Positions 2-11,041 of a stretch of DNA of 20,123 bases are shown piece after piece. The notes under the pieces were generated by a model. That model saw only the letters and a list, made by a program, of their open reading frames with translations. It was not told the origin of the DNA and ran no database searches. Position 1 is the stretch's first letter, and each line of letters starts with the position of its first letter. This stretch comes from a virus, in the IMG/VR virus record IMGVR_UViG_3300029319_000296, positions 10,782 through 30,904 of that record, one strand, 5' to 3'. The translations under genes and the position numbers were made by a program.

Positions 2-340
2 GATCTATCTTTTTCTTCCAATGTGTTGCATATAAACGGCGGTTTAAGATTAAGAAGAGTACATACGTCGGCGTCCTTAACAGCCTCTGTGTCGGACTAC
101 TATATAGGAGTCAACTCTTCACAAGCACCGGTGAGCATTCAGTTGCCCAGTGCAGGCGCCCTTAGCGATGGTCAGACATATGTTGTTAAAGACGAGGGCG
201 GCGCTTCAAACACTAATAATATCACGATTTCAGCCTCTGGATCGCAAGAAATTGATGGTCAAAATACGGTAATTTTGGAGTCACCTTACGCATCGATCCA
301 GCTTTATTCAAACGGCGCCGATAGATTCTTTATTTTCTAA
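2..340 (+). CDS. Tail fibre-like protein, C-terminal end only (5' truncated by window edge)
   Basis: The reading frame is open from the window edge, so this is the 3' end of a larger gene. A GTG codon at 23 is in frame but has no ribosome binding site and the frame continues upstream of it. The visible ~112 residues form a beta-rich domain with a Leu-Pro-Ser-Ala-Gly segment, a 'VVKDEGG' segment, an Asn-rich 'NNITIS' strand, 'QEIDGQ', and a final aromatic 'RFFIF'. The same pattern ends the three complete fibre-like genes downstream (464-2068, 2400-3524, 3554-4672), so this is probably the first member of a tandem adhesin cluster. Domains of this kind usually sit at the distal, receptor-facing end of phage fibres; that role is inferred here. 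No terminator hairpin is visible after the stop codon. Confidence 0.75.
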   Translation, partial: DLSFSSNVLHINGGLRLRRVHTSASLTASVSDYYIGVNSSQAPVSIQLPSAGALSDGQTYVVKDEGGASNTNNITISASGSQEIDGQNTVILESPYASIQLYSNGADRFFIF

Positions 341-463
341 AATTTTTAGACATTTAATGTGCTAATTATAAGCGAGTCCGTCGTATCTATTTGGAACTAA
401 TTTGGATAGGTGCGTCTGGCTCCTTGCTATATTACAAAACTATTATATGGAGGGTTTTTAAAC

Positions 464-2068
464 ATGGCTTACAAATTTCAATTAGGTGCTGCCGTTATGT
501 CAGGCTCACTAGAACAAGAAGGTAGTGTTGACATTACCGATTCTGGTGTGCTCAAGATCGCTGGTAGTACTCTCGCGGACGCTTCGCGAAACCTTACAGC
601 TGCTCAGGTTTCTGGTTCTGGTAACTTGTTAATTGGTGGTACAGTTCGTTTTGACGGTGCTGTTGACGCTGCAATGGTGGCCACTGATGGTATGTATTTC
701 TTGGATTCCGATGGAATCATGAAAAGAGACGCTGCATCAGATGTGCGTGACTTGTTCTTCTCAGCTGTTAGTGGCGACGCTACCGTCGCTTCTGGTGGTG
801 CTCTCACCATCGCTGCCGCTGCTGTTCACCACGGTATGCTTAACGATGACATCATCTCCGGTCAAGACGAGTTGGCTCACGCTGACATCGCTGATGCCGA
901 TGAGTTGATGATCTCTGACGCTGGTACTGTTAAGAGAGTGGGCGTTGATAGCCTTCGTGATCACTTCTTCGGTGTTGTTAGCGGTGACGCTACAGTTGCC
1001 GATGGTGGTGCTCTCACTATTGCTAACGATGCTGTTGAGCAGGCTATGATTGCAGACGATGCAGTCGGCGCCGATCAGCTAGCCGCTAACGCAGTTGTCA
1101 ACGCTTCTGTTGTTGACGGTGCTCTTAAGGCCGACAAGCTTGACTTCGACGGTTCTACCGATATCGGTGCCGATCTGGTCGATGCTGATCTCTTGCTTGT
1201 TGATGATGGTGCAACCGGTACAAACCGCAAGTCCACACTAACACGCGTGAAGAAGTACATCTACAGTGCTATGAGTGGTGATGCTACCGCTTCCGATGCT
1301 GGTGCTTTGACAATTGCTAACGATGCTGTTGAAAGCGGAATGCTCAACGACAACGTTATCTCTGGTCAGACTGAGTTGGCTCACGCTGATATTGTTGACG
1401 CTGATGAGTTGCTGATTTCTGATGGCGGCGTGCTGAAGAGAGTTGGCGTTGATAGTCTTCGCGATCACTTCTTCGGTGTTGTTAGCGGTGACGCTACAGT
1501 TGCTGACGGTGGTGCTCTCACCATTGCTGCTAACGCTGTTCAGGATTCTATGCTTCACGATGATGTTGCAACCGGTCTTGCTGGTGCTGGTCTCAGCGCT
1601 GCAAGTGGTGTTCTAGCTCTTGACCTCAACGAACTTACTGCTGAGTCTATTGCTTCTGGCGACTTCTTGCCTTTCGAGGATAGCACAGACAATGGTAGCC
1701 ACAAGATTACTATTGACAACTTAGCTGCCTTCATGGCTGGTGATGGTGTCGATGCTTCTGGTGGTAAGCTTAGCGTTGCTGGTTCAACAGTTTCTGCTAC
1801 TGGTGATGATGATGCCACTCTCATCGAAGGCTTCAACTACCAGAGCGCAACATTGACTGCTGACCGCACCTGGACTCTACCAGCCCCTGGTGGTCTAGAT
1901 GCAGGCAGTGTCGTTCGCGTTAAGGCAGGTAACCTTGATGGCAACAAGATCACTGTTGCACGTAACGGCGCCACTATTGATGGCGTTGCTACTGACCTTG
2001 AGCTTGAAGCTAATGGTGCTGCTATTTCACTAATGTACATTGGTAGCAGTTCCTGGCAGATCTTCTAA
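464..2068 (+). CDS. Repeat-containing tail fibre / receptor-binding-like protein (534 aa)
   Basis: The start is ATG 464, preceded by GGAGGG at 449-454; an in-frame TTG at 410 has no such site. The product begins MAYKFQLGAA, matching the MAY start of two neighbouring fibre genes, a possible virion-attachment motif. The body holds five copies of a ~47-residue module with the pattern D-x(3-4)-D-x-L-x(2)-D ... SLRDHFF ... SGDATV-x-DGGALTIA (residues about 71-117, 141-187, 237-285, 309-355, 394-439), joined by linkers such as NDAVxxxMIADDAV. Such Gly/Ala/Asp-rich beta repeats are typical of trimeric phage fibres. The last ~90 residues match the C-terminal domain of the other fibre genes (TWTLPAPGG, NKITVARNG, final WQIF). 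Codon choice (GCT, GGT, CTT, AAC) resembles the capsid and sheath genes, which fits high expression. A strong terminator follows directly. Confidence 0.8.
   Translation: MAYKFQLGAAVMSGSLEQEGSVDITDSGVLKIAGSTLADASRNLTAAQVSGSGNLLIGGTVRFDGAVDAAMVATDGMYFLDSDGIMKRDAASDVRDLFFSAVSGDATVASGGALTIAAAAVHHGMLNDDIISGQDELAHADIADADELMISDAGTVKRVGVDSLRDHFFGVVSGDATVADGGALTIANDAVEQAMIADDAVGADQLAANAVVNASVVDGALKADKLDFDGSTDIGADLVDADLLLVDDGATGTNRKSTLTRVKKYIYSAMSGDATASDAGALTIANDAVESGMLNDNVISGQTELAHADIVDADELLISDGGVLKRVGVDSLRDHFFGVVSGDATVADGGALTIAANAVQDSMLHDDVATGLAGAGLSAASGVLALDLNELTAESIASGDFLPFEDSTDNGSHKITIDNLAAFMAGDGVDASGGKLSVAGSTVSATGDDDATLIEGFNYQSATLTADRTWTLPAPGGLDAGSVVRVKAGNLDGNKITVARNGATIDGVATDLELEANGAAISLMYIGSSSWQIF
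674..1780 (+). repeat. Five degenerate ~47-codon modules inside the fibre gene
   Basis: Units lie at about 674-814, 884-1024, 1172-1318, 1388-1528 and 1643-1780. The shared protein pattern is an acidic 'DADELLISD' strand, a basic residue pair, 'SLRDHFF', then 'SGDATVADGGALTIA'. Units 2 and 4 are nearly identical, including their upstream flanks (MLNDxxISGQxELAHADI), and lie 504 nt apart, which points to a recent internal duplication or conversion. Unit 5 is the most diverged. A single related module occurs in the neighbouring fibre gene 2400-3524 ('NDLLLVSD ... SLKNLYDNYI'). Confidence 0.8.
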
Positions 2069-2101
2069 GATTATCTTAGCAGTCAACAGGACAAAACATT
2101 T

Positions 2102-2135
2102 AGATGCCCCTCCTTGTGGGGGGCATCTTTTTTTT
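2102..2135 (+). terminator. Rho-independent terminator after the repeat fibre gene
   Basis: Stem AGATGCCCC (2102-2110) pairs perfectly with GGGGCATCT (2120-2128) around a short loop, followed by a run of eight T (2128-2135). It separates the highly biased fibre gene from the small Smr-like gene. Confidence 0.9.
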
Positions 2136-2136
2136 G

Positions 2137-2150
2137 TACTATTTATAGTA
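2137..2150 (+). promoter_or_regulatory. TACTATTTATAGTA motif (candidate phage late promoter or regulatory site)
   Basis: A 14-nt near-palindrome (TACTAT-TT-ATAGTA) lies between the terminator and the ATG at 2153. Related sequences with the core CTATTTA occur in most other intergenic gaps of the window. The start codon is only 3 nt beyond the motif and there is no Shine-Dalgarno sequence, so if this is a promoter the transcript would be leaderless or nearly so. The reverse complement contains TATAAATA, the classical T4 late-promoter word, so the orientation of any promoter is unclear. Confidence 0.4.
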
Positions 2151-2152
2151 TA

Positions 2153-2371
2153 ATGAAGATATTAGATTTGCACGGCACCAAGCATCACGGGGTGGAGATT
2201 CAAGTAACAAATTTTGTTTTAATGAACGAGAGGCCATTAAAAATAATAACCGGCGATTCAGACGCAATGCGCAAAATAGTGTTTGGAATCCTTGACGAGT
2301 ACGGATTCGAATACCATCCTGAATTTTATACAAATTATGGCGCGTTTATTATCAGAGATAAAACAAATTAA
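2153..2371 (+). CDS. Small Smr-like domain protein (72 aa)
   Basis: The start is ATG 2153. A longer reading from TTG 2114 would run through the terminator and is rejected. The product opens MKILDLHGTKH: the hydrophobic-DLHG signature marks the Smr domain (C-terminal domain of MutS2 and small stand-alone Smr proteins), often a nuclease or nucleic-acid-binding fold. It is followed by a helix (VEIQVTNFVL), a strand ending in 'IITGDS' where Smr proteins usually carry an HGKG-like loop, a helix (AMRKIVFGILDEYGF), and a last strand (GAFIIRD). The canonical HGxG is thus replaced by TGDS, so activity cannot be assumed. At 72 aa it is near the minimum for the fold. It lies among fibre genes, an odd place for a nucleic-acid enzyme. 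Domain recognition is by eye. Confidence 0.65.
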   Translation: MKILDLHGTKHHGVEIQVTNFVLMNERPLKIITGDSDAMRKIVFGILDEYGFEYHPEFYTNYGAFIIRDKTN

Positions 2372-2375
2372 TTGC

Positions 2376-2389
2376 CTATTTATGAGGTA
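2376..2389 (+). promoter_or_regulatory. CTATTTATGAGGTA motif upstream of fibre gene 2400
   Basis: This is a member of the recurrent intergenic motif family (core CTATTTA). It lies 24 nt before the ATG at 2400. It overlaps a weak Shine-Dalgarno region (GAGG at 2384-2387 and AGAGGAA at 2389-2395), so the site could also just be an AT-rich ribosome-binding context. Confidence 0.3.
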
Positions 2390-2399
2390 GAGGAAACAA

Positions 2400-3524
2400 A
2401 TGGCATATAATATACTAAAAGGAACCATTGACGGCTCAGTTGATCAGCACGGAGATCAAGAGATTGATGGCATTAAAATATTCAAAAACACAATAAGTGC
2501 TAGCGTTTTTTATGATACCGACGCACAAAGCGCATGTGCTACCATGAAGGATGTCGCAATTGTAAAGATTAATGGTGGCTCTAAAAATAGTGTATTGTTA
2601 TATGAGGGCAATGCAGTAGCCCGCACACATCATGATTTAGTTTATGATTCTGGTGTTTTGCATGCCAAAAAGATAAAAGCCGACACAATCCAGGCATCTG
2701 CTGGGTTGCTCACTGACGTTCCGGCTGATAAGTTTAACGGCACCATTCCAGCAAATTTTATCAAAACAGGGGTTGGGCTGACAAATGTGCGCGGCCACCT
2801 TCAAATTAGCGCTGGTCCCGGCTTGCTGTGTGAAGATAAGCTTGAATTAAACATTAGCTCGCAATCTGGTCTTGCAATAAAGAATAACAAGCTGCAAGTT
2901 GATGTGGCAAAGTCTGAAAAGATCAACGTACACGGACAAAACCTTGCCGATAATGATCTACTATTAGTTTCGGACACATCAAGAGGGATGTCGCTCAATA
3001 CAAGTTTGAAAAATCTTTATGACAACTACATCAATGTAAAGGTACCGCACGCTGCCGGCAGCACAGGGCAGATACAATTTAAGTCTTCAAGAGAATTTGG
3101 CGCTTCTGAGTTGCTGACATACGATTCCGCGACAAACACATTGAATGTAGAAGGTACAGCTAAATCAATCGTCAGCAGAATTCAGCAAAAGCTTGTGTGT
3201 GAGGGTGCTGTTCACCACAATATTAAAAAAATAAATACGCCGATATACGATATTTGTTCAGAAGATTATACAATCTTGTGTGATGCTGCGGATCACAAAG
3301 TGAAAGTTAATTTACCAGCCGCAATCAACAACCGTGGTAGGGTGCTGATAATCAAAAAAACAAACACAGATAAATATAAGCTCACATCTAATGTTGTTGA
3401 AATTGCATGCGAAGAGGGCCCCATTGACTTAGGCGAAAGCTGTATCATAAAAATGAATTATTCCACAAGAACGCTCCAATCTGATGGAGAAAATTGGTGG
3501 ATTATTGGAAGCAAAGGTAGTTGA
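2400..3524 (+). CDS. Tail fibre-like protein (374 aa)
   Basis: Starts at ATG 2400 after an AGAGGAA site. The N-terminus MAYNILKGTI parallels the MAY starts of 464 and 3554. Visible parts in order: an N-terminal segment with 'SVDQHGDQEIDG'; a variable middle; one copy (about residues 178-215) of the 'DNDLLLVSD...SLKNLYDNYI' module that is repeated five times in the 464 gene; a 'GSTGQIQFKSSREFG...LLTYDSATNTLNV' element also found in the 3554 gene; and the shared C-terminal beta domain (KVKVNLPAAINNRG, VLIIKKTN, final NWWIIGSKGS). Codon use is more AT-rich than in the 464 gene. Most likely a virion adhesin or fibre subunit; which tail part it attaches to is unknown. Confidence 0.75.
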   Translation: MAYNILKGTIDGSVDQHGDQEIDGIKIFKNTISASVFYDTDAQSACATMKDVAIVKINGGSKNSVLLYEGNAVARTHHDLVYDSGVLHAKKIKADTIQASAGLLTDVPADKFNGTIPANFIKTGVGLTNVRGHLQISAGPGLLCEDKLELNISSQSGLAIKNNKLQVDVAKSEKINVHGQNLADNDLLLVSDTSRGMSLNTSLKNLYDNYINVKVPHAAGSTGQIQFKSSREFGASELLTYDSATNTLNVEGTAKSIVSRIQQKLVCEGAVHHNIKKINTPIYDICSEDYTILCDAADHKVKVNLPAAINNRGRVLIIKKTNTDKYKLTSNVVEIACEEGPIDLGESCIIKMNYSTRTLQSDGENWWIIGSKGS

Positions 3525-3525
3525 G

Positions 3526-3540
3526 TCTACTTATAATAGA
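3526..3540 (+). promoter_or_regulatory. TCTACTTATAATAGA motif upstream of fibre gene 3554
   Basis: A dyad (TCTA...TAGA) with an AT-rich centre resembles the other intergenic motifs and sits directly before the Shine-Dalgarno sequence CAGGAGA (3541-3547) of the gene starting at 3554. Confidence 0.3.
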
Positions 3541-3553
3541 CAGGAGAAATTAA

Positions 3554-4672
3554 ATGGCCTATAACAGCAACAAAGGCAACCAACATATGGGGGATGTCCA
3601 ATACGAGGGCGACCCAAACGACGTACAAATTGATTTTGAAAATGACTTTATCGCATTAAAAACAAACGGCCAGCAAAGACTTATCGTTTCTGGCTCTGCG
3701 ATCACCTCGTCAGTGCTGCTATCAGGCTCTCAAGGCATTATTGGCAATTCATTGTCCACAGCCACTACTACTATTGACGCCACACACATTTCAAGCTCTC
3801 TTAATATTTCCGCATCAGCTTTTTATGGGGATGGTAGCAATCTAGAGGGTGTTGGCGGCGGCACGCCTGGGGGCTCAAATACTCAAATTCAATATAACGC
3901 TGATGGAGCTTTTGGCGCAGACTCTGATTTTACATGGGCTTCTGGCAGCAACACACTTACCGTTACGGGCGACATTAGTGCTTCAATTAATATTTCTGCA
4001 TCAGCTTTTTATGGGGATGGTAGCAATCTAGAGGGTGTTGGCGGCGGCACGCCTGGGGGCTCAAATACCCAAATTCAATATAACGCAGATGGGGCTTTCG
4101 GTTCAGACGCTCAGTTTACATGGGCTTCTGGCAGCAACACACTTACCGTTACGGGCGACATTAGTGCTTCAATTAATATTTCTGCTTCTAACTTTTACGG
4201 TGGTGGTGCAAACCTAACAAGCTTAAATGCTTCTAACGTTTCTGCCGGCACGCTTGATAATGCTAGGCTTCCGGCCACAATTAGTGTAACAAACGTCACA
4301 GCAAGTTCACTTGTGTCGGCCAGTTTCCTTTATGGTGATGGAAGTAATCTAACAAATGTTGGCACTGCAACATCGGCAGCTATACACAGTTCAAGTTTTA
4401 CAGCTTCTGCCACATCTGATATTTTAGCAATAAACTCTTCTGGTAGTGTTATAACTGCCTCTCTATTGGCGGCAAACTCTTACGACGCTGGATATCGTCT
4501 CAGCTTTAAAGACGTTCAAGGATATGCCGCTACAAACAATATTTTAATTAAGCCGTCTGGTTCAGAAAGTATAGATGGATCTAACTCGGGGATACTTATT
4601 ACCACCAATCATGGCTCTGTGGAGATATTTTCCAATGGCGTAAACTCTTATCACATATTGAGTACGAATTAA
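3554..4672 (+). CDS. Tail fibre-like protein with duplicated GDGSNL module (372 aa)
   Basis: ATG 3554 follows AGGAG at 3542-3546. The N-terminus MAYNSNKGNQ matches the motif shared by the fibre cluster. The middle contains three 'FYGDGSNL/FYGGGANL' elements, then a fourth 'FLYGDGSNLTNVG' near residue 256. This short motif recurs in many phage fibre proteins. Between the first copies are two near-identical 'GGSNTQIQYNADGAFG...FTWASGSNTLTV' modules produced by a 186-nt tandem duplication. The last ~75 residues are the shared C-terminal domain (LSFKDVQG, NNILIKPSGSESIDG, final SYHILSTN). It is probably an adhesin subunit. Its stop codon is one base before the next ATG, so the next gene is probably translationally coupled. 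Confidence 0.75.
   Translation: MAYNSNKGNQHMGDVQYEGDPNDVQIDFENDFIALKTNGQQRLIVSGSAITSSVLLSGSQGIIGNSLSTATTTIDATHISSSLNISASAFYGDGSNLEGVGGGTPGGSNTQIQYNADGAFGADSDFTWASGSNTLTVTGDISASINISASAFYGDGSNLEGVGGGTPGGSNTQIQYNADGAFGSDAQFTWASGSNTLTVTGDISASINISASNFYGGGANLTSLNASNVSAGTLDNARLPATISVTNVTASSLVSASFLYGDGSNLTNVGTATSAAIHSSSFTASATSDILAINSSGSVITASLLAANSYDAGYRLSFKDVQGYAATNNILIKPSGSESIDGSNSGILITTNHGSVEIFSNGVNSYHILSTN
3801..4215 (+). repeat. 186-bp tandem duplication in fibre gene, with partial third copy
   Basis: Unit 1 is 3801-3986 and unit 2 is 3987-4172, with very few differences (for example the TTTCC/TTTCT change near each unit start, and a small cluster near the 'GADSDF' versus 'GSDAQF' codons). A third copy starts at 4173 and loses similarity after about 40 nt. 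The unit is 62 codons, so the frame is kept. This looks like a recent slippage or recombination event in an adhesin gene. Confidence 0.92.
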
Positions 4673-6176: not shown

Positions 6177-7517
6177 ATGTCAAATTTGCTTAAAGAAGCT
6201 ATTGTTGATGCAAAAGCATTGAGAGACTCGGCACTTAAGAATGCGGAAGCCACCATTATTGAAAAATATTCCCAAGAAGTGAAGAATACCGTGGATCAGC
6301 TACTTGAGCAGGATGAAGGTTTAATGGGAGAAGAGGCTGGATCTGATGAGACAGTTGCCAAGAACATCCCGTTAGCTGCAACCGACGGTCTGTCTGAAGA
6401 AGAAGGCGACATTCCCAATAATATGAACGAAGAAGGCGAAGAAGTTCCCGTAACCATCGACTTGCAGGCTCTACAAGAGGCAGTTGCAGAACTTAGCTCC
6501 GAAATGAACGAAGACGACACAGAAGAATCTCCACTCTCAGAAGCAGACGATGAAGAAATCGAAATCACCGAAGAGGCCCTCGCCGCAATGCTTGAGAGCG
6601 ACGAGGAGATTATCGAAGAAGAAGATGATGTCAAGGGCGAAGAGGGTGAAAGTAAAGCTGAGTCCTCTAGCGATCAGGACGAGGCCGCTATGCGGGGTAT
6701 GGAAGAAGCAAACCTAGCGCAGAGACTAAAGACAGCCTTTGGCTTTGGTGGTGAGAGCAAGGCAGAGCGGGACAAAAGACTGGCTCGCCACGCCGCCGCC
6801 GAAAAAAGAGAAAAAGAAGCACTGGCAAACCAGGAAGCGCGCCGCCGAGCCGAAGAAGAAGAAGAACGACGCCGGGAAATCGCGTACCTGAACGCCACAG
6901 GCGGTGGACTCCCCGGAGACTACAACCCCTACATGTACGAAGAAAATCTTGATACTGATGCGCTTGTTGATGCCATCATGGAGAAACTTACCGTTGATAT
7001 GGGCGCCGAACTGGCCGGCTGGGCAGGAAGATCCGCCGATGACCAGAAGTTCCAAATGGAAAAAGAATTAGCCCGTCGTCGTAGTACAGACGTGGCAGAA
7101 GAATTAGAGACTTTAAAGAAAGCTCAGGAAGAGTTAGTTTTTGAGAATAAACAACTTACTGAGAAACTTTCTAACTACGAGGAAGCTGTCGGACAACTAA
7201 GAGAGAGTTTGCAAGATGTGAACCTTTCTAACGGCCGCTTACTCTACACGAACCGTGTGCTTAGGAATCCCTCCTTGAATGAGCGACAAAAAGAAAAGAT
7301 TGTCGAAGCTATTTCTAATGCTGGTTCTGTAACAGACGCGAAGGTTATTTATGAAACCCTTCAAAGCGCAGTGGAGACAAAGCCCAAGCAAAGTCCAAAA
7401 ACACTGAGCGAAGCTATCAGCAATAAACGAGCACCTGTTATTCGCGCTACTCGTAAAGAGAGCGCACCCTCTGATCCTTTACAAGAAAGGATGAAGAGGC
7501 TAGCTGGTATTAAGTAA
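6177..7517 (+). CDS. Prohead core / capsid scaffolding protein (T4 gp22-like, 446 aa)
   Basis: ATG 6177 follows AGGAGA at 6165-6170. Order of parts: an N-terminal helix 'MSNLLKEAIVDAKALRD' typical of T4-like prohead core proteins; a very acidic stretch at about residues 45-172; a charged Arg/Glu/Ala helix at about 196-235; a coiled coil at about 291-350; then 'NGRLLYTNRVL' and 'NERQKEKIVEAIS', and a basic C-terminus ending ERMKRLAGIK. Scaffolds of this type fill the procapsid, guide capsid protein assembly and are degraded by a prohead protease; the protease gene is not in the window. Its place directly before the major capsid gene supports the call. It is longer than T4 gp22 (about 270 aa), mostly because of the acidic part. 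Confidence 0.8.
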   Translation: MSNLLKEAIVDAKALRDSALKNAEATIIEKYSQEVKNTVDQLLEQDEGLMGEEAGSDETVAKNIPLAATDGLSEEEGDIPNNMNEEGEEVPVTIDLQALQEAVAELSSEMNEDDTEESPLSEADDEEIEITEEALAAMLESDEEIIEEEDDVKGEEGESKAESSSDQDEAAMRGMEEANLAQRLKTAFGFGGESKAERDKRLARHAAAEKREKEALANQEARRRAEEEEERRREIAYLNATGGGLPGDYNPYMYEENLDTDALVDAIMEKLTVDMGAELAGWAGRSADDQKFQMEKELARRRSTDVAEELETLKKAQEELVFENKQLTEKLSNYEEAVGQLRESLQDVNLSNGRLLYTNRVLRNPSLNERQKEKIVEAISNAGSVTDAKVIYETLQSAVETKPKQSPKTLSEAISNKRAPVIRATRKESAPSDPLQERMKRLAGIK

Positions 7518-7546: not shown

Positions 7547-9358
7547 ATGGCTAGTATTATTGAAAGATTGACCGAAGGTGTTGTCAATCGTGATATGCGC
7601 GCCGAAGGTCACGCTTTGTTAACAAAGTGGGAGCGCACAGGTCTTCTAGAAGGACTTGATAGTGACCGTAAGAAGCAGTCTATGGCTCGTCTCCTAGAGA
7701 ATCAGGCCAAGGAACTACTTCGCGAAAGCACCAGCATGAGCGCTGGTGACGTTGAGGGTTTTGCCGCAGTGGCTTTCCCAATCGTTCGTCGTGTTTTCGC
7801 AGGCTTGATTGCTAACGATCTCGTTAGTGTTCAGCCAATGAGTCTCCCAAGTGGACTCATCTTCTTCCTAGATTTCGTGTTCTCACCTGATCTAAATGGT
7901 GTTGCACAGACTGGTGATCGTCTGGGCAATGTTTACGATAAGTCAATTTATGGTACAGATCAGGTTGGTTCCCAGATCACCGGTGGTGTTGATCTTGTTA
8001 ACGCTGACGGTGTTGGCTTCGGTGGTCCTCGCACAGCTGGTGCTCGCGGTTATGCCTATGGTTCTCCAACAGGCACGGTTGAGGTCGCGCTAGCTAACTA
8101 CGATCTTCAGGCTTTTGACCTTGATAGTGCATCTGCAGCGCAGAAAAAGCTTATTCAGTATGATCCAGATCTCTTAGCTTTAAGTGGCTCTGGTACTGCT
8201 TATGCTGTAGCTGTTTTTGCTGTTGCTGAAGCCGGATATACTGGTAACCAGATTGATTTTGAGAATACCTCTGGTATTGTTCTCAATGATGTCACCATTA
8301 CACAGCAGTCCGGTATCGGCGGCTCATTAACCTCTGCTGCCAACTTAGTTCGTCGTTTGACACGTCGTGCTTCTGCTGCTGATGTTGCCACTGGCCTTGT
8401 TTCTGCAGATGAGCTTATCTTTACTGTTGTCGCCACTTCTGGTACCACCGCTGATGACATTAACACCGGCGGCGTTGCCGAGGCAACCGGCCTAACAGCT
8501 TCTTTCGCACAGAAAGACAACATTACCGCCGGTAATGCTGCTGGCTCCGTTGTTGGTGCTGCTACTTGGGGTCTTGAGGGTAACGCTGATATCCCCGAGA
8601 TCGACATCAAGGTGGACAGTATCGCTGTTACCGCTCAGACCAAGAAGCTCAAGGCCAAGTGGACCCCAGAGCTTGGTCAGGATCTCAACGCATACCACAA
8701 CTTGGATGCTGAGGTCGAACTTACTTCAATTCTCTCCGAGCAGATTGCTCTTGAGATTGACCGTGAGATCCTTGCTGACCTTGTTAACGGTGCTACTGCT
8801 GAGACACGCTACTGGTCACGCGCCCCCGGACTCTTCGTTGATTCTACCGGCGCTGAGATTGGTGCTAGCACCAAGGCTCCCGACTTCACTGGTACTGTCA
8901 GTGAGTGGTACGAGACACTCGTTGAGACAATCAACGACGTTTCTGCTGCTATCCACCGTAAGACTCTTCGTGGTGGTGCCAACTTTGTGGTCTGTGGCCC
9001 CGAAATTGCCAACATCCTTGAGTTCACCGCTGGATTCCGTGCGAACGTCACTGCTGACGCAGAGACAGGTTCAATCGGTGCTGTTGCAGTTGGCTCACTA
9101 AGCAAGAAGTTTGATGTCATTGTTGACCCATACTTCCTACGCAACGTGATCCTCGTTGGTCGTCGCGGCTCCTCTTTCCTAGAAAGCGGATACGTATACG
9201 CTCCATATGTCCCACTGCAGACCACACCGACCATCTTTGGTCCCGAAGACTTCGTGCCCCGTAAGGGCGTGATGACTCGCTACGCCAAGCAGATGGTTCG
9301 TCCTGATATGTACGGTCTAGTTGTCGTGCGCGGTCTACTTGGTGAATCTGGCGCTTAA
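7547..9358 (+). CDS. Major capsid protein, T4 gp23-like (603 aa)
   Basis: The product forms the hexamers of the phage head. Family landmarks: N-terminal 'LLENQAKELLRE' (residues ~49-60), 'VRRVFAGLIANDLVSVQPM' (80-98), 'QTKKLKAKWTPELGQDLNAY' (~364-383), 'LSEQIALEIDREIL', 'NFVVCGPEIANIL', and near the C-terminus 'VPLQTTPTIFGPEDFVPRKG' followed by a 'MTRYAKQMVRPDMYGLVVV' strand. All match the HK97-fold gp23 group. At 603 aa it exceeds T4 gp23 (521 aa). The extra length lies between residues ~170 and ~345, where gp23 carries its insertion domain. Codon use is strongly biased. It is preceded by the scaffold gene and followed by a strong terminator. In T4 the N-terminal ~65 residues are removed by the prohead protease; a cleavage site here is likely but I cannot fix it. 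Confidence 0.93.
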   Translation: MASIIERLTEGVVNRDMRAEGHALLTKWERTGLLEGLDSDRKKQSMARLLENQAKELLRESTSMSAGDVEGFAAVAFPIVRRVFAGLIANDLVSVQPMSLPSGLIFFLDFVFSPDLNGVAQTGDRLGNVYDKSIYGTDQVGSQITGGVDLVNADGVGFGGPRTAGARGYAYGSPTGTVEVALANYDLQAFDLDSASAAQKKLIQYDPDLLALSGSGTAYAVAVFAVAEAGYTGNQIDFENTSGIVLNDVTITQQSGIGGSLTSAANLVRRLTRRASAADVATGLVSADELIFTVVATSGTTADDINTGGVAEATGLTASFAQKDNITAGNAAGSVVGAATWGLEGNADIPEIDIKVDSIAVTAQTKKLKAKWTPELGQDLNAYHNLDAEVELTSILSEQIALEIDREILADLVNGATAETRYWSRAPGLFVDSTGAEIGASTKAPDFTGTVSEWYETLVETINDVSAAIHRKTLRGGANFVVCGPEIANILEFTAGFRANVTADAETGSIGAVAVGSLSKKFDVIVDPYFLRNVILVGRRGSSFLESGYVYAPYVPLQTTPTIFGPEDFVPRKGVMTRYAKQMVRPDMYGLVVVRGLLGESGA

Positions 9359-9769: not shown

Positions 9770-11041
9770 ATGCCAACCAATTTGGAACCCAGTAGCACTA
9801 CTAGCGCTATCGTCTTAACATCAACCGGTAGCACTTCGGATGTAACGTCTTCCCTTCCATTCGGAATTTATACAAGCTCCGAAGAGTTCATTAGCGGAGC
9901 GTCTGCACAGGTTGCTTACGTTTATAAGAAACTAGGCGGCGATGTCGTTGATATTGAATTGACAAATTCCAATGTATATGCTGCCTATGAAGAAGCAGTA
10001 CTAGAGTATTCTTACATAGTAAACTTGCACCAAGGCAAGAACGTCTTATCATCCATTTTAGGGCAAGCAACGGGCACATTTGACCACAAAGGCGAATTAA
10101 CAGCAGGCCCGTCAGGTTCAAACCTAAAATACCCTAGGTTCTCGCTTGGTTATTCTCGTCGCGTCGGTGACGGAGCCGCTAGCGCCGCAGGTTTCGGCGG
10201 CACTATACCTATTTACTCAGCATCATTCGCCCCGGTCAAAAATCAGCAAGTGTACAACTTACAGGCCATTATCCAAGACGCGTCCACATCAGGAGTTGAC
10301 GACGGAGGTAACGCTGTGGATTATGCCGGCAAAGTAGGCGATAACAGGGTTTTAATTACACAGGTTTACTACAAATCTCCACGTGCAATGTGGAGGTTTT
10401 ATGGCTATTACGGCGGAATTGGTGTTGTAGGTAACTATTCAACATACGGTCAGTTTGCAGACGATTCAACGTTTGAGATTATTCCGACATGGCAGAATAA
10501 GATGCAGGCGATCATGTATGAAGACTCAATTTATACAAGAACATCGCACTATTCATACGATTTAATAGACAACAAGTTGAGGCTTTACCCGACACCCAGC
10601 GATTTTGGTATGGAGGGCCTAACAGATAGAATATGGTTTAGATTCCAAGTTGATTTAGAGCCGTTTGCTACAGGTTCTTATAATAGCGGTGTTGAGGGAG
10701 TCAACAACTTGAACACGGTGCCATTTGATAATCTCCCATACGAAAACATCAACTCAATGGGCAAGCAGTGGATTAGAAAATATTGCTTGGCACTGTGTAA
10801 GGAGATGCTAGGTCAGATTCGTGGTAAGTTTACTACGATGCCTATTCCGGGTGAAAGCGTAACACTAAACCATTCTGAGCTTTTATCGCAAGCTAAAGAA
10901 GAGCAGCAAGAATTAAAAGAAAAACTAAGAGAAATGCTTAAAGAAGTGGAGTACCCAGCACTTGCCAAACAGGATCAAGAGATATCAGAGGCTGCGTCAA
11001 ATGTGCTTAAAATTTCTCCATTGCCAATTTTTGTGGGGTAA
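9770..11041 (+). CDS. Neck / head-tail connector protein (probably T4 gp13-like, 423 aa)
   Basis: It starts at ATG 9770 (MPTNLEPSSTTS) after AGGAGGTG. Landmarks: 'EEFISGASAQVAYVYKKLGG' (residues ~41-60), 'NSNVYAAYEEAVLEYSYIVN' (~71-90), an aromatic region 'SPRAMWRFYGYYGGIGVVGN', 'NKLRLYPTPSD', and an acidic/basic C-terminal helix rich in Glu and Lys (~residues 365-400). The 'YAAYEEAVLEYSYI' helix and the place between capsid and sheath are features of neck and connector proteins of T4-like phages. It would join the portal vertex to the tail. T4 gp13 is 309 aa, so this one is larger. Assignment between gp13 and another neck component is uncertain. The next gene starts 6 nt after the stop. Confidence 0.55.
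   Translation: MPTNLEPSSTTSAIVLTSTGSTSDVTSSLPFGIYTSSEEFISGASAQVAYVYKKLGGDVVDIELTNSNVYAAYEEAVLEYSYIVNLHQGKNVLSSILGQATGTFDHKGELTAGPSGSNLKYPRFSLGYSRRVGDGAASAAGFGGTIPIYSASFAPVKNQQVYNLQAIIQDASTSGVDDGGNAVDYAGKVGDNRVLITQVYYKSPRAMWRFYGYYGGIGVVGNYSTYGQFADDSTFEIIPTWQNKMQAIMYEDSIYTRTSHYSYDLIDNKLRLYPTPSDFGMEGLTDRIWFRFQVDLEPFATGSYNSGVEGVNNLNTVPFDNLPYENINSMGKQWIRKYCLALCKEMLGQIRGKFTTMPIPGESVTLNHSELLSQAKEEQQELKEKLREMLKEVEYPALAKQDQEISEAASNVLKISPLPIFVG

Follow-up and report, generated by a model that had tools for sequence, protein, structure and literature searches.

Why should adjacent fibre genes of one phage share their ends and differ in their middles? The question is raised by a row of fibre-like genes at the start of a 20,123-nucleotide (nt) stretch of viral DNA (the window), which comprises bases 10782–30904 of the 30,904-base uncultured virus record IMGVR_UViG_3300029319_000296 from IMG/VR (contig locus label L005). 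The contig carries five such genes, in slots designated A to E, followed by two further genes, P5 and P6, and then a scaffold-type gene at 6177 of the window. We propose, at a probability of about one half, that this array encodes a single jointed fibre of homologous pieces, with the gene order running from proximal to distal. In such a fibre, A would attach to the virion, B, C, and D would be intermediate pieces, and E would be the distal piece; each C-terminal domain would dock the N-terminus of the next piece, which begins with the residues MAY, and E would form the receptor-binding tip together with P5 and P6. Shared ends and different middles would be explained in this way, because the ends could be matching halves of a joint: the first piece has no MAY N-terminus, the last usually has no domain, and the middle pieces have both.

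The gene row and its common domain

An earlier note had described four tandem fibre-like genes in the window. Their open reading frames (ORFs), one of them 5′-open, and the MAY starts of the three complete genes were confirmed (Table 1). The first of these "genes", however, is the 3′ part of slot B, which is broken by 10 Ns at contig positions 10772–10781 (an assembly gap), and the count of four is a window effect, since a fifth member lies upstream.

The same row was found in related uncultured phages, in which the order A-B-C-D-E is kept between the prohead protease gene and the scaffold and capsid genes. The loci of these relatives (L006–L085, L090–L173, and L174–L211) were gathered by similarity to P0007, P0002, P0003, P0005, slot A of L044, and the tip gene of L024, with the P0007 search contributing its best 80 matches; the sample is non-random, and certain contigs are present more than once. 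Profile thresholds, supplemented by a few patterns of start motifs (A*, C*, and D*), defined the slot labels. An iterated slot-A N-terminal profile drifted onto other slots, and shorter, start-anchored profiles were used instead. Array statistics refer to 44 complete arrays, from which near-identical ones were removed at a scaffold identity of >0.97; the window's own array is not among them because A and the scaffold gene fall in different loci here. The last gene of L128, whose called start hides its N-terminus, was counted as D by its domain. Nineteen of the 44 arrays run from A to E, 11 stop at D and 5 at a D-like segment, 4 consist of A and C, 3 of A alone, and 2 of A followed by separate proteins; no internal gap was seen among them.

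The C-terminal domain is, by profile comparison, homologous in all five contig genes. When each member was searched with a profile seeded by the four others, B, E, D, and C gave E-values of 4.6e-19, 4e-11, 0.0017, and 0.0012, respectively. A profile of 76 domains from other phages, obtained by a search seeded with the domain of B and excluding the window sequences, matched B, D, E, and C at 6e-33, 4e-22, 4e-21, and 1e-14, respectively, and found all five contig members within the range of 6e-33 to 1e-14, which bears out the claim that the four genes of the window share this domain (E ≤ 1e-14). The one match listed for the reversed-sequence control was the reversed slot C protein, at 0.0057. 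The all-against-all comparison suggested in the earlier note had a mixed outcome: pairwise BLASTP failed to recover the common ends as a single block (P0001/P0002 and P0002/P0003), whereas profiles built from relatives did. Among unique complete proteins from loci up to L173, the domain lay within 40 residues of the end in 55/55 A, 55/56 B, 53/54 C, 58/60 D, and 3/41 E proteins, leaving 38 of the 41 E genes without it. In each of seven long records (53–131 kb), it occurred four times, within 3.9–4.3 kb.

At the opposite end, a MAY start was observed in 234 of 260 slot B–E genes and in 11 of 1450 other ORFs, a partly circular count. Among 290 ORFs chosen by the C-terminal domain, 191 had a MAY/MSY-type start, 63 an A-type start, and 36 neither, some of the last being truncated or having variant starts; of 960 ORFs without the domain, 62 had a MAY/MSY start, and 60 of these were slot members.

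The domain is of the type found in the phage fibre and baseplate proteins gp9, gp10, and gp34. By sequence, its profile matched proximal long tail fibre subunits (6.8e-7 and 2.2e-5), tailspike protein 4 (TSP4) of phage CBA120 (9e-5), and gp10 (1e-4); the CBA120 match falls on TSP4 residues 94–174, ahead of the XD1–XD2 linker at 179–188. PF07880, the T4 gp9/gp10 N-terminal domain, scored P0004 at 23.2 bits, under its curated cut-off of 25 (22.1 for the domain alone), and matched 7 of 44 domain rows at E ≤ 0.01 (best 7.3e-5). P0003 alone matched nothing convincing in the PDB (best E 0.32).

A structural model of D (42 sequences) had a mean predicted local distance difference test (pLDDT) score of 74.4, with block means of 74–93 over residues 271–370. 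Its C-terminal domain matched the C-terminus of a tailspike depolymerase (24qj, Z 12.0), CBA120 TSP4 (Z 11.2, root-mean-square deviation 2.1, 93 aligned residues), a chain of 9f4a (Z 10.5), T4 gp10 (Z 9.8), the C-terminus of the Pa223 capsid spike (9ny6 residues 195–294, Z 9.5), T4 gp9 (Z 8.8), 6o38 (Z 8.6), and StcE (4dny, Z 7.7), and the next rows fell to 3.3; these matches place it in the T4 gp9/gp10/gp34-type fold. The fold is widespread: at E ≤ 0.001, a library of viral structures yielded 169 matches, which came from uncultured phages and, in some cases, giant viruses. In gp34, gp10, and CBA120 TSP4, the related modules are parts of fibres or baseplates built from several components. Residues 1–51 of the D model had pLDDT values under 50, although the most conserved part lies there, and an N-terminus with no predicted structure of its own fits a segment that may fold only on a partner.

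Domain subtypes and the following gene

The C-terminal domains fall into slot-specific subtypes. Cross-validation assigned 211 of 215 correctly (A 58/58, B 55/59 with 4 taken for C, C 53/53, and D 45/45). In the 44 arrays, the subtype matched the next gene better than it matched the N-terminus of its own protein. Type a stood ahead of B in 35/35 cases, type b ahead of C in 36/38, type c ahead of D or a D-like gene in 34/35 (the exception, L031, has an intervening ORF), and type d ahead of E in 19/19. By its own N-terminus, A carried type a in 38/44, and the six exceptions are the informative cases. Where A stands directly before C, it carries a B-type domain in 4/4 arrays, at 110–136 bits against 62–72 bits for the runner-up (type A in three, Dadh in L023). 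Two A-type genes that precede separate proteins carry the tip-type domain, which also occurs on D-like and E-type N-termini. The junctions of the four A/B fusions differ, and the capsid-protein tree forces three changes for these four rows; the three could represent a single gain with two losses, and the history of the array may differ from that of the capsid gene. Where the scaffold gene comes directly next, A (3/3) and C (4/4) keep their usual types, so the rule is informative only for genes with a further piece after them.

Could the genes instead encode independent tail fibres, each anchored through its own N-terminus at the baseplate or neck, with the domain serving as a trimer-forming cap and E as the main receptor binder? 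The B-type domain that precedes C even without B (4/4) is not predicted by such an arrangement, nor is the observation that shorter arrays lack distal members only. The presence of the same domain in gp10, gp34, and tailspikes would agree with it, a cap that needs no partner would fit the arrays ending at A, C, or D, and the slot subtypes would follow from orthology alone. We regard independent fibres as rather unlikely.

Several observations weigh against the jointed fibre as well. The arrays that end at D (11), C (4), or A (3) keep the domain and have no E; the N-terminus of E was found in none of six D-ending records searched and in both of two controls, though the records may be fragments. 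In L109 and L128, B has a c-type domain; L153 has a tip-type domain and no tip gene; and in L136, a domain of weak assignment (54 bits) precedes an 895-amino-acid (aa) ORF. The domain and the start of the next gene could move together by linkage alone, because they are neighbours in the DNA, and distance-correlation tests of the joints were set aside since the two adjoin. The closest CBA120 domain, XD1, is taken as a spacer with a function not fully understood, and it is XD2 and XD3 that dock, according to excerpts of PMC8825819. The fold also occurs in proteins other than fibres (StcE and 6o38), and the P5 model, with a mean pLDDT of 44, was unusable. Finally, the genes are located among those of the head, and their C-terminal fold is also that of a capsid spike (9ny6).

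These last two points could also mean that the genes encode capsid spikes or head fibres that decorate the head. This reading was kept because of the unexpected match to the Pa223 capsid spike, and the gene place between the prohead protease and the scaffold and capsid genes agrees with it. Most of the better fold and sequence matches, however, are tailspike, tail fibre, and baseplate proteins. In bases 1–99,000 of a 130,761-base relative, a composition screen marked A, B, C, E, and only two other fibre-like ORFs (277 and 334 aa, neither with a PHROG match), so, were the array confined to the head, the tail would have no obvious large fibres; this is a crude screen, which misses slot D itself. 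Decoration of the head is judged unlikely.

The variable end of the array

The jointed-fibre proposal places the variable part at the distal end. The earlier note expected middles to exchange while ends stay fixed, and the identities between relatives give a different picture. Median pairwise identities of the N-terminus, middle, and last 85 residues were 0.57, 0.45, and 0.45 for slot A; 0.43, 0.54, and 0.55 for B; 0.42, 0.30, and 0.38 for C; 0.82, 0.38, and 0.47 for D; and 0.64, 0.33, and 0.22 for E, against shuffled controls of 0.20–0.27 for middles (D 0.20, C 0.27) and 0.19–0.21 for ends (E 0.19). The middle of C does vary as expected, since 0.30 is barely above its control; the middle of D is alignable, and in E it is the C-terminus that is replaced while the N-terminus is kept. 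Exchange is thus concentrated at the end of the array: about 45 N-terminal residues of E are kept and its C-terminus differs between phages, with endings of several kinds (...TCVWEYD, ...TDTWKRVAISTW, ...YFNPS.DW, and ...EWAVLSYY). Together with the relatives of the domain in gp34, gp10, and tailspikes, this variable end supports the fibre-like, host-recognition role that had been suggested from the window.

The E of the window ends in the shared domain and is followed by two separate proteins, P5 and P6, which are counted in the unit because of the comparison with relatives and their position directly after E. An ORF followed the terminal gene in 13 of 14 cases when that gene had a tip-type domain (the exception being L153) and in 4 of 34 when it was an E or D-like gene without the domain (Fisher's test, 1.5e-7; 2.8e-5 when the 13 were manually reduced to 8 lineages). 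The counts were entered by hand, the no-domain side was left uncollapsed, and L136 and five rows in which the contig ends after the gene were dropped. Among 15 listed following ORFs, Met1, Leu4, and Trp11 were common to 10 and not to 5. Relatives of P5 in L027 are 89% and 69% identical to it, and P5-like bodies in L207 (5001–5645) and L208 (5001–5624) are 71% and 72% identical; in the latter two, other sequence stands ahead of the shared body and the true start is uncertain. No gp23 was found in the records of L207 and L208, which may be fragments. Such exchange of the P5 body between phages is what would be expected of a receptor-binding protein, as P5 may be. The AlphaFold2 model of P5 was discarded, and no fold is claimed. 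Several adhesins on one virion, as first suggested for the whole family, are possible for P5 and P6; A–D look more like parts of one conserved structure.

Exchange of middle modules between paralogues to vary several adhesins, although a slot-D shaft module does occur in 27/70 B, 8/70 A, and 8/53 E proteins including the E of the window, is very improbable, because the slots are orthologous across phages, the exchanged part is the C-terminus of E, and a second claimed module fails. The module common to D and E in the window held up (BLASTP 2e-4; slot-D profile 2.4e-6), whereas the "DLLLVSD" module said to join C and D did not (BLASTP 0.048; the slot-D profile found 1 of 69 slot-C proteins, not that of the window). 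The slot-D module was also found in 35 of 1438 other ORFs and is therefore taken as a general shaft element. Sharing of one shaft module between slots accordingly stands, and shuffling as the main process is not supported, each slot having its own orthologues, C-terminal subtype, and place.

Table 1. Features of the fibre array. Coordinates are window positions unless marked L005 (contig positions).
Feature	Position	Strand	Remarks
Slot A	L005 9687–10358 (upstream of window)		starts MAFGWAYV; no MAY start
Slot B, 5′ part	L005 10379–10771 (start 403 bases upstream of window)		starts MAYNNLSG
Slot B, 3′ part	2–340	+	5′-open ORF; B-type domain 138.6 bits vs 69.9 for next type
C-terminal domain of B	62–337	+	joint-type, gp9/gp10/gp34-like
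Slot C, P0001, 534 aa	464–2068	+	starts MAYKFQLG
C-terminal domain of C	1820–2065	+	weakest member; profile 9.6e-15
Small ORF between C and D	2153–2371	+	kept in several relatives (label o2114), Smr-like there
Slot D, P0002, 374 aa	2400–3524	+	starts MAYNILKG
D N-terminal 45 residues	2400–2534	+	proposed docking segment
C-terminal domain of D	3231–3521	+	fold matches, model residues about 269–374
Slot E, P0003, 372 aa	3554–4672	+	variable last segment; starts MAYNSNKG
E N-terminal 45 residues	3554–3688	+	kept in relatives, remainder differs; residues 1–54 up to 85% identical
Two shaft repeats in E, 186 nt	3801–4172	+	95% alike
C-terminal domain of E	4385–4669	+	tip-type (precedes separate tip proteins), 102.4 bits vs 57.3
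P5, P0005, 228 aa	4674–5360	+	proposed separate receptor-binding tip protein
P6, P0006, 229 aa	5385–6074	+	P5 paralogue, 66% identical; same proposed role

The shaft of C contains 298-nt repeats that are 77% alike (764–1061 and 1268–1565), and P0001 has a weak match to phrog_892, "tail fiber protein" (2.2e-5, residues 185–227). The shaft repeats of E are a recent duplication. In L022, L072, and L078, the small ORF between C and D matched the Smr domain with sub-threshold scores (E-values of 4e-4 to 3e-3); that of the window gave no Smr match.

By its gene content, the record is that of a T4-like phage. A gp20 portal (PF07230, 262 bits) was identified, and upstream ORFs appear terminase-like and gp21-protease-like, as labelled by eye and from the annotation of relatives. 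The gp23 major capsid protein lies at 7547–9358 (PF07068 6e-72; phrog_138 2.6e-70), with neck-type (phrog_211) and hub-type (phrog_150) proteins after it; the size and order of further ORFs suggest sheath, tube, and tape measure proteins. The capsid protein matched 2,500 phage records, every one at <60% identity, the first among the matches listed being an uncultured 484-kb phage, Flavobacterium phage immuto, Microcystis phage Mel-JY01, and Rhodothermus phage RM378. Immuto and Mel-JY01 have only a few other ORFs between the protease and capsid genes. At E ≤ 0.001, the shared C-terminal domain was matched once in the uncultured 484-kb phage and nowhere in the complete records of immuto, Mel-JY01, and RM378.

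A gene for ribosomal protein S21 was observed in the head block at L005 9003–9245 (label o9003; PF01165, 32 bits against a cut-off of 27) and has the same place in many of the listed relatives; phage-encoded bS21 is already known (excerpts of PMC9723584). Directly upstream of A, a 131-aa protein (L005 9288–9683) is kept in many listed relatives; in others, a different protein (about 150 aa) takes that place. Searches of PHROGs, Pfam, and 50,697 phage records found no match to the 131-aa protein at the thresholds applied, and it could be an attachment partner of A. In L139 and L141, different fibre-like genes (LSRFRPSRN.. or MSRFRPSRN..) follow the protease gene, and their shaft modules are 71% identical to E within residues 73–305; gp23 is present in the L141 record, and none was found in the 14.3-kb L139 record. 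In a relative, a 3,714-aa ORF without a PHROG match lies downstream of a baseplate-wedge-type gene at L216 6954–18095 (G001 46954–58098).

Known fibre systems and meaning

The genes of the T4 long tail fibre are ordered gp34-gp35-gp36-gp37, with gp37/gp38 as alternatives, and gp38 is the adhesin in relatives. The shared domain of the array matches the proximal subunits of this fibre, and the array likewise has a variable distal piece or separate tip protein, its distal position being the one we propose. Excerpts of PMC5537660 and PMC12892980 describe long tail fibres as several proteins from proximal to distal, with receptor binding at the distal end and a tip that is part of the last protein or a separate protein. 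Unlike in T4, A–D all end in a domain of one family, the array is situated among the head genes, and no gp35-like hinge was identified in it.

In the TSP1–4 complex of CBA120, gp10-type domains are part of a multi-protein receptor-binding assembly (excerpts of PMC8825819), which resembles the array in domain type and in the fold match given above. The domains are N-terminal in TSP4 and TSP2, on a baseplate-anchored tailspike, whereas those of slots A–D are C-terminal, one per protein, and XD1-like. RaK2 (Alcyoneusvirus) has numerous fibre proteins, which gp10-like domains are believed to link, with five such domains predicted in one protein, according to excerpts of PMC10253068, in contrast to one per protein in a gene row here. 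The host recognition cluster of the marine T4-like pelagimyophages and cyanomyophages is, like the array, a variable fibre island among structural genes; it lies between VrlC and gp14 (excerpts of PMC7029224), whereas the array lies between the prohead protease and scaffold/gp23 genes and has fixed slots.

No close cultured model was found for this layout, as slots A and D had no protein match at E ≤ 1e-3 in the 50,697 phage records and B, C, and E matched one, two, and two records, respectively, over 15–25% of the query. The array was not found described in searches of the literature on marine T4-like fibres, head fibres, head-to-tail fibre docking, or the Pa223 capsid spike, and no virion proteomics of immuto was found among the literature matches listed.

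The joint model is put forward as a hypothesis with good comparative support. More tentatively, the array may represent a class of uncultured T4-like phages with a host-recognition fibre made as a chain of homologous pieces encoded inside the capsid operon and a joint code in which the C-terminal subtype names the next piece, the tip being either built in or formed by separate, exchangeable proteins. If this code is true, pieces would be dropped or fused only where the joint is preserved. Because the fibre locus is lodged among head genes, gene place alone could mislead annotation. If the genes do encode a jointed fibre, the pieces that fit together and the position of the receptor-binding tip would be readable from the genome, with no need of the hosts, and the changeable last piece and tip proteins are probably how these viruses change the surface that they grip.

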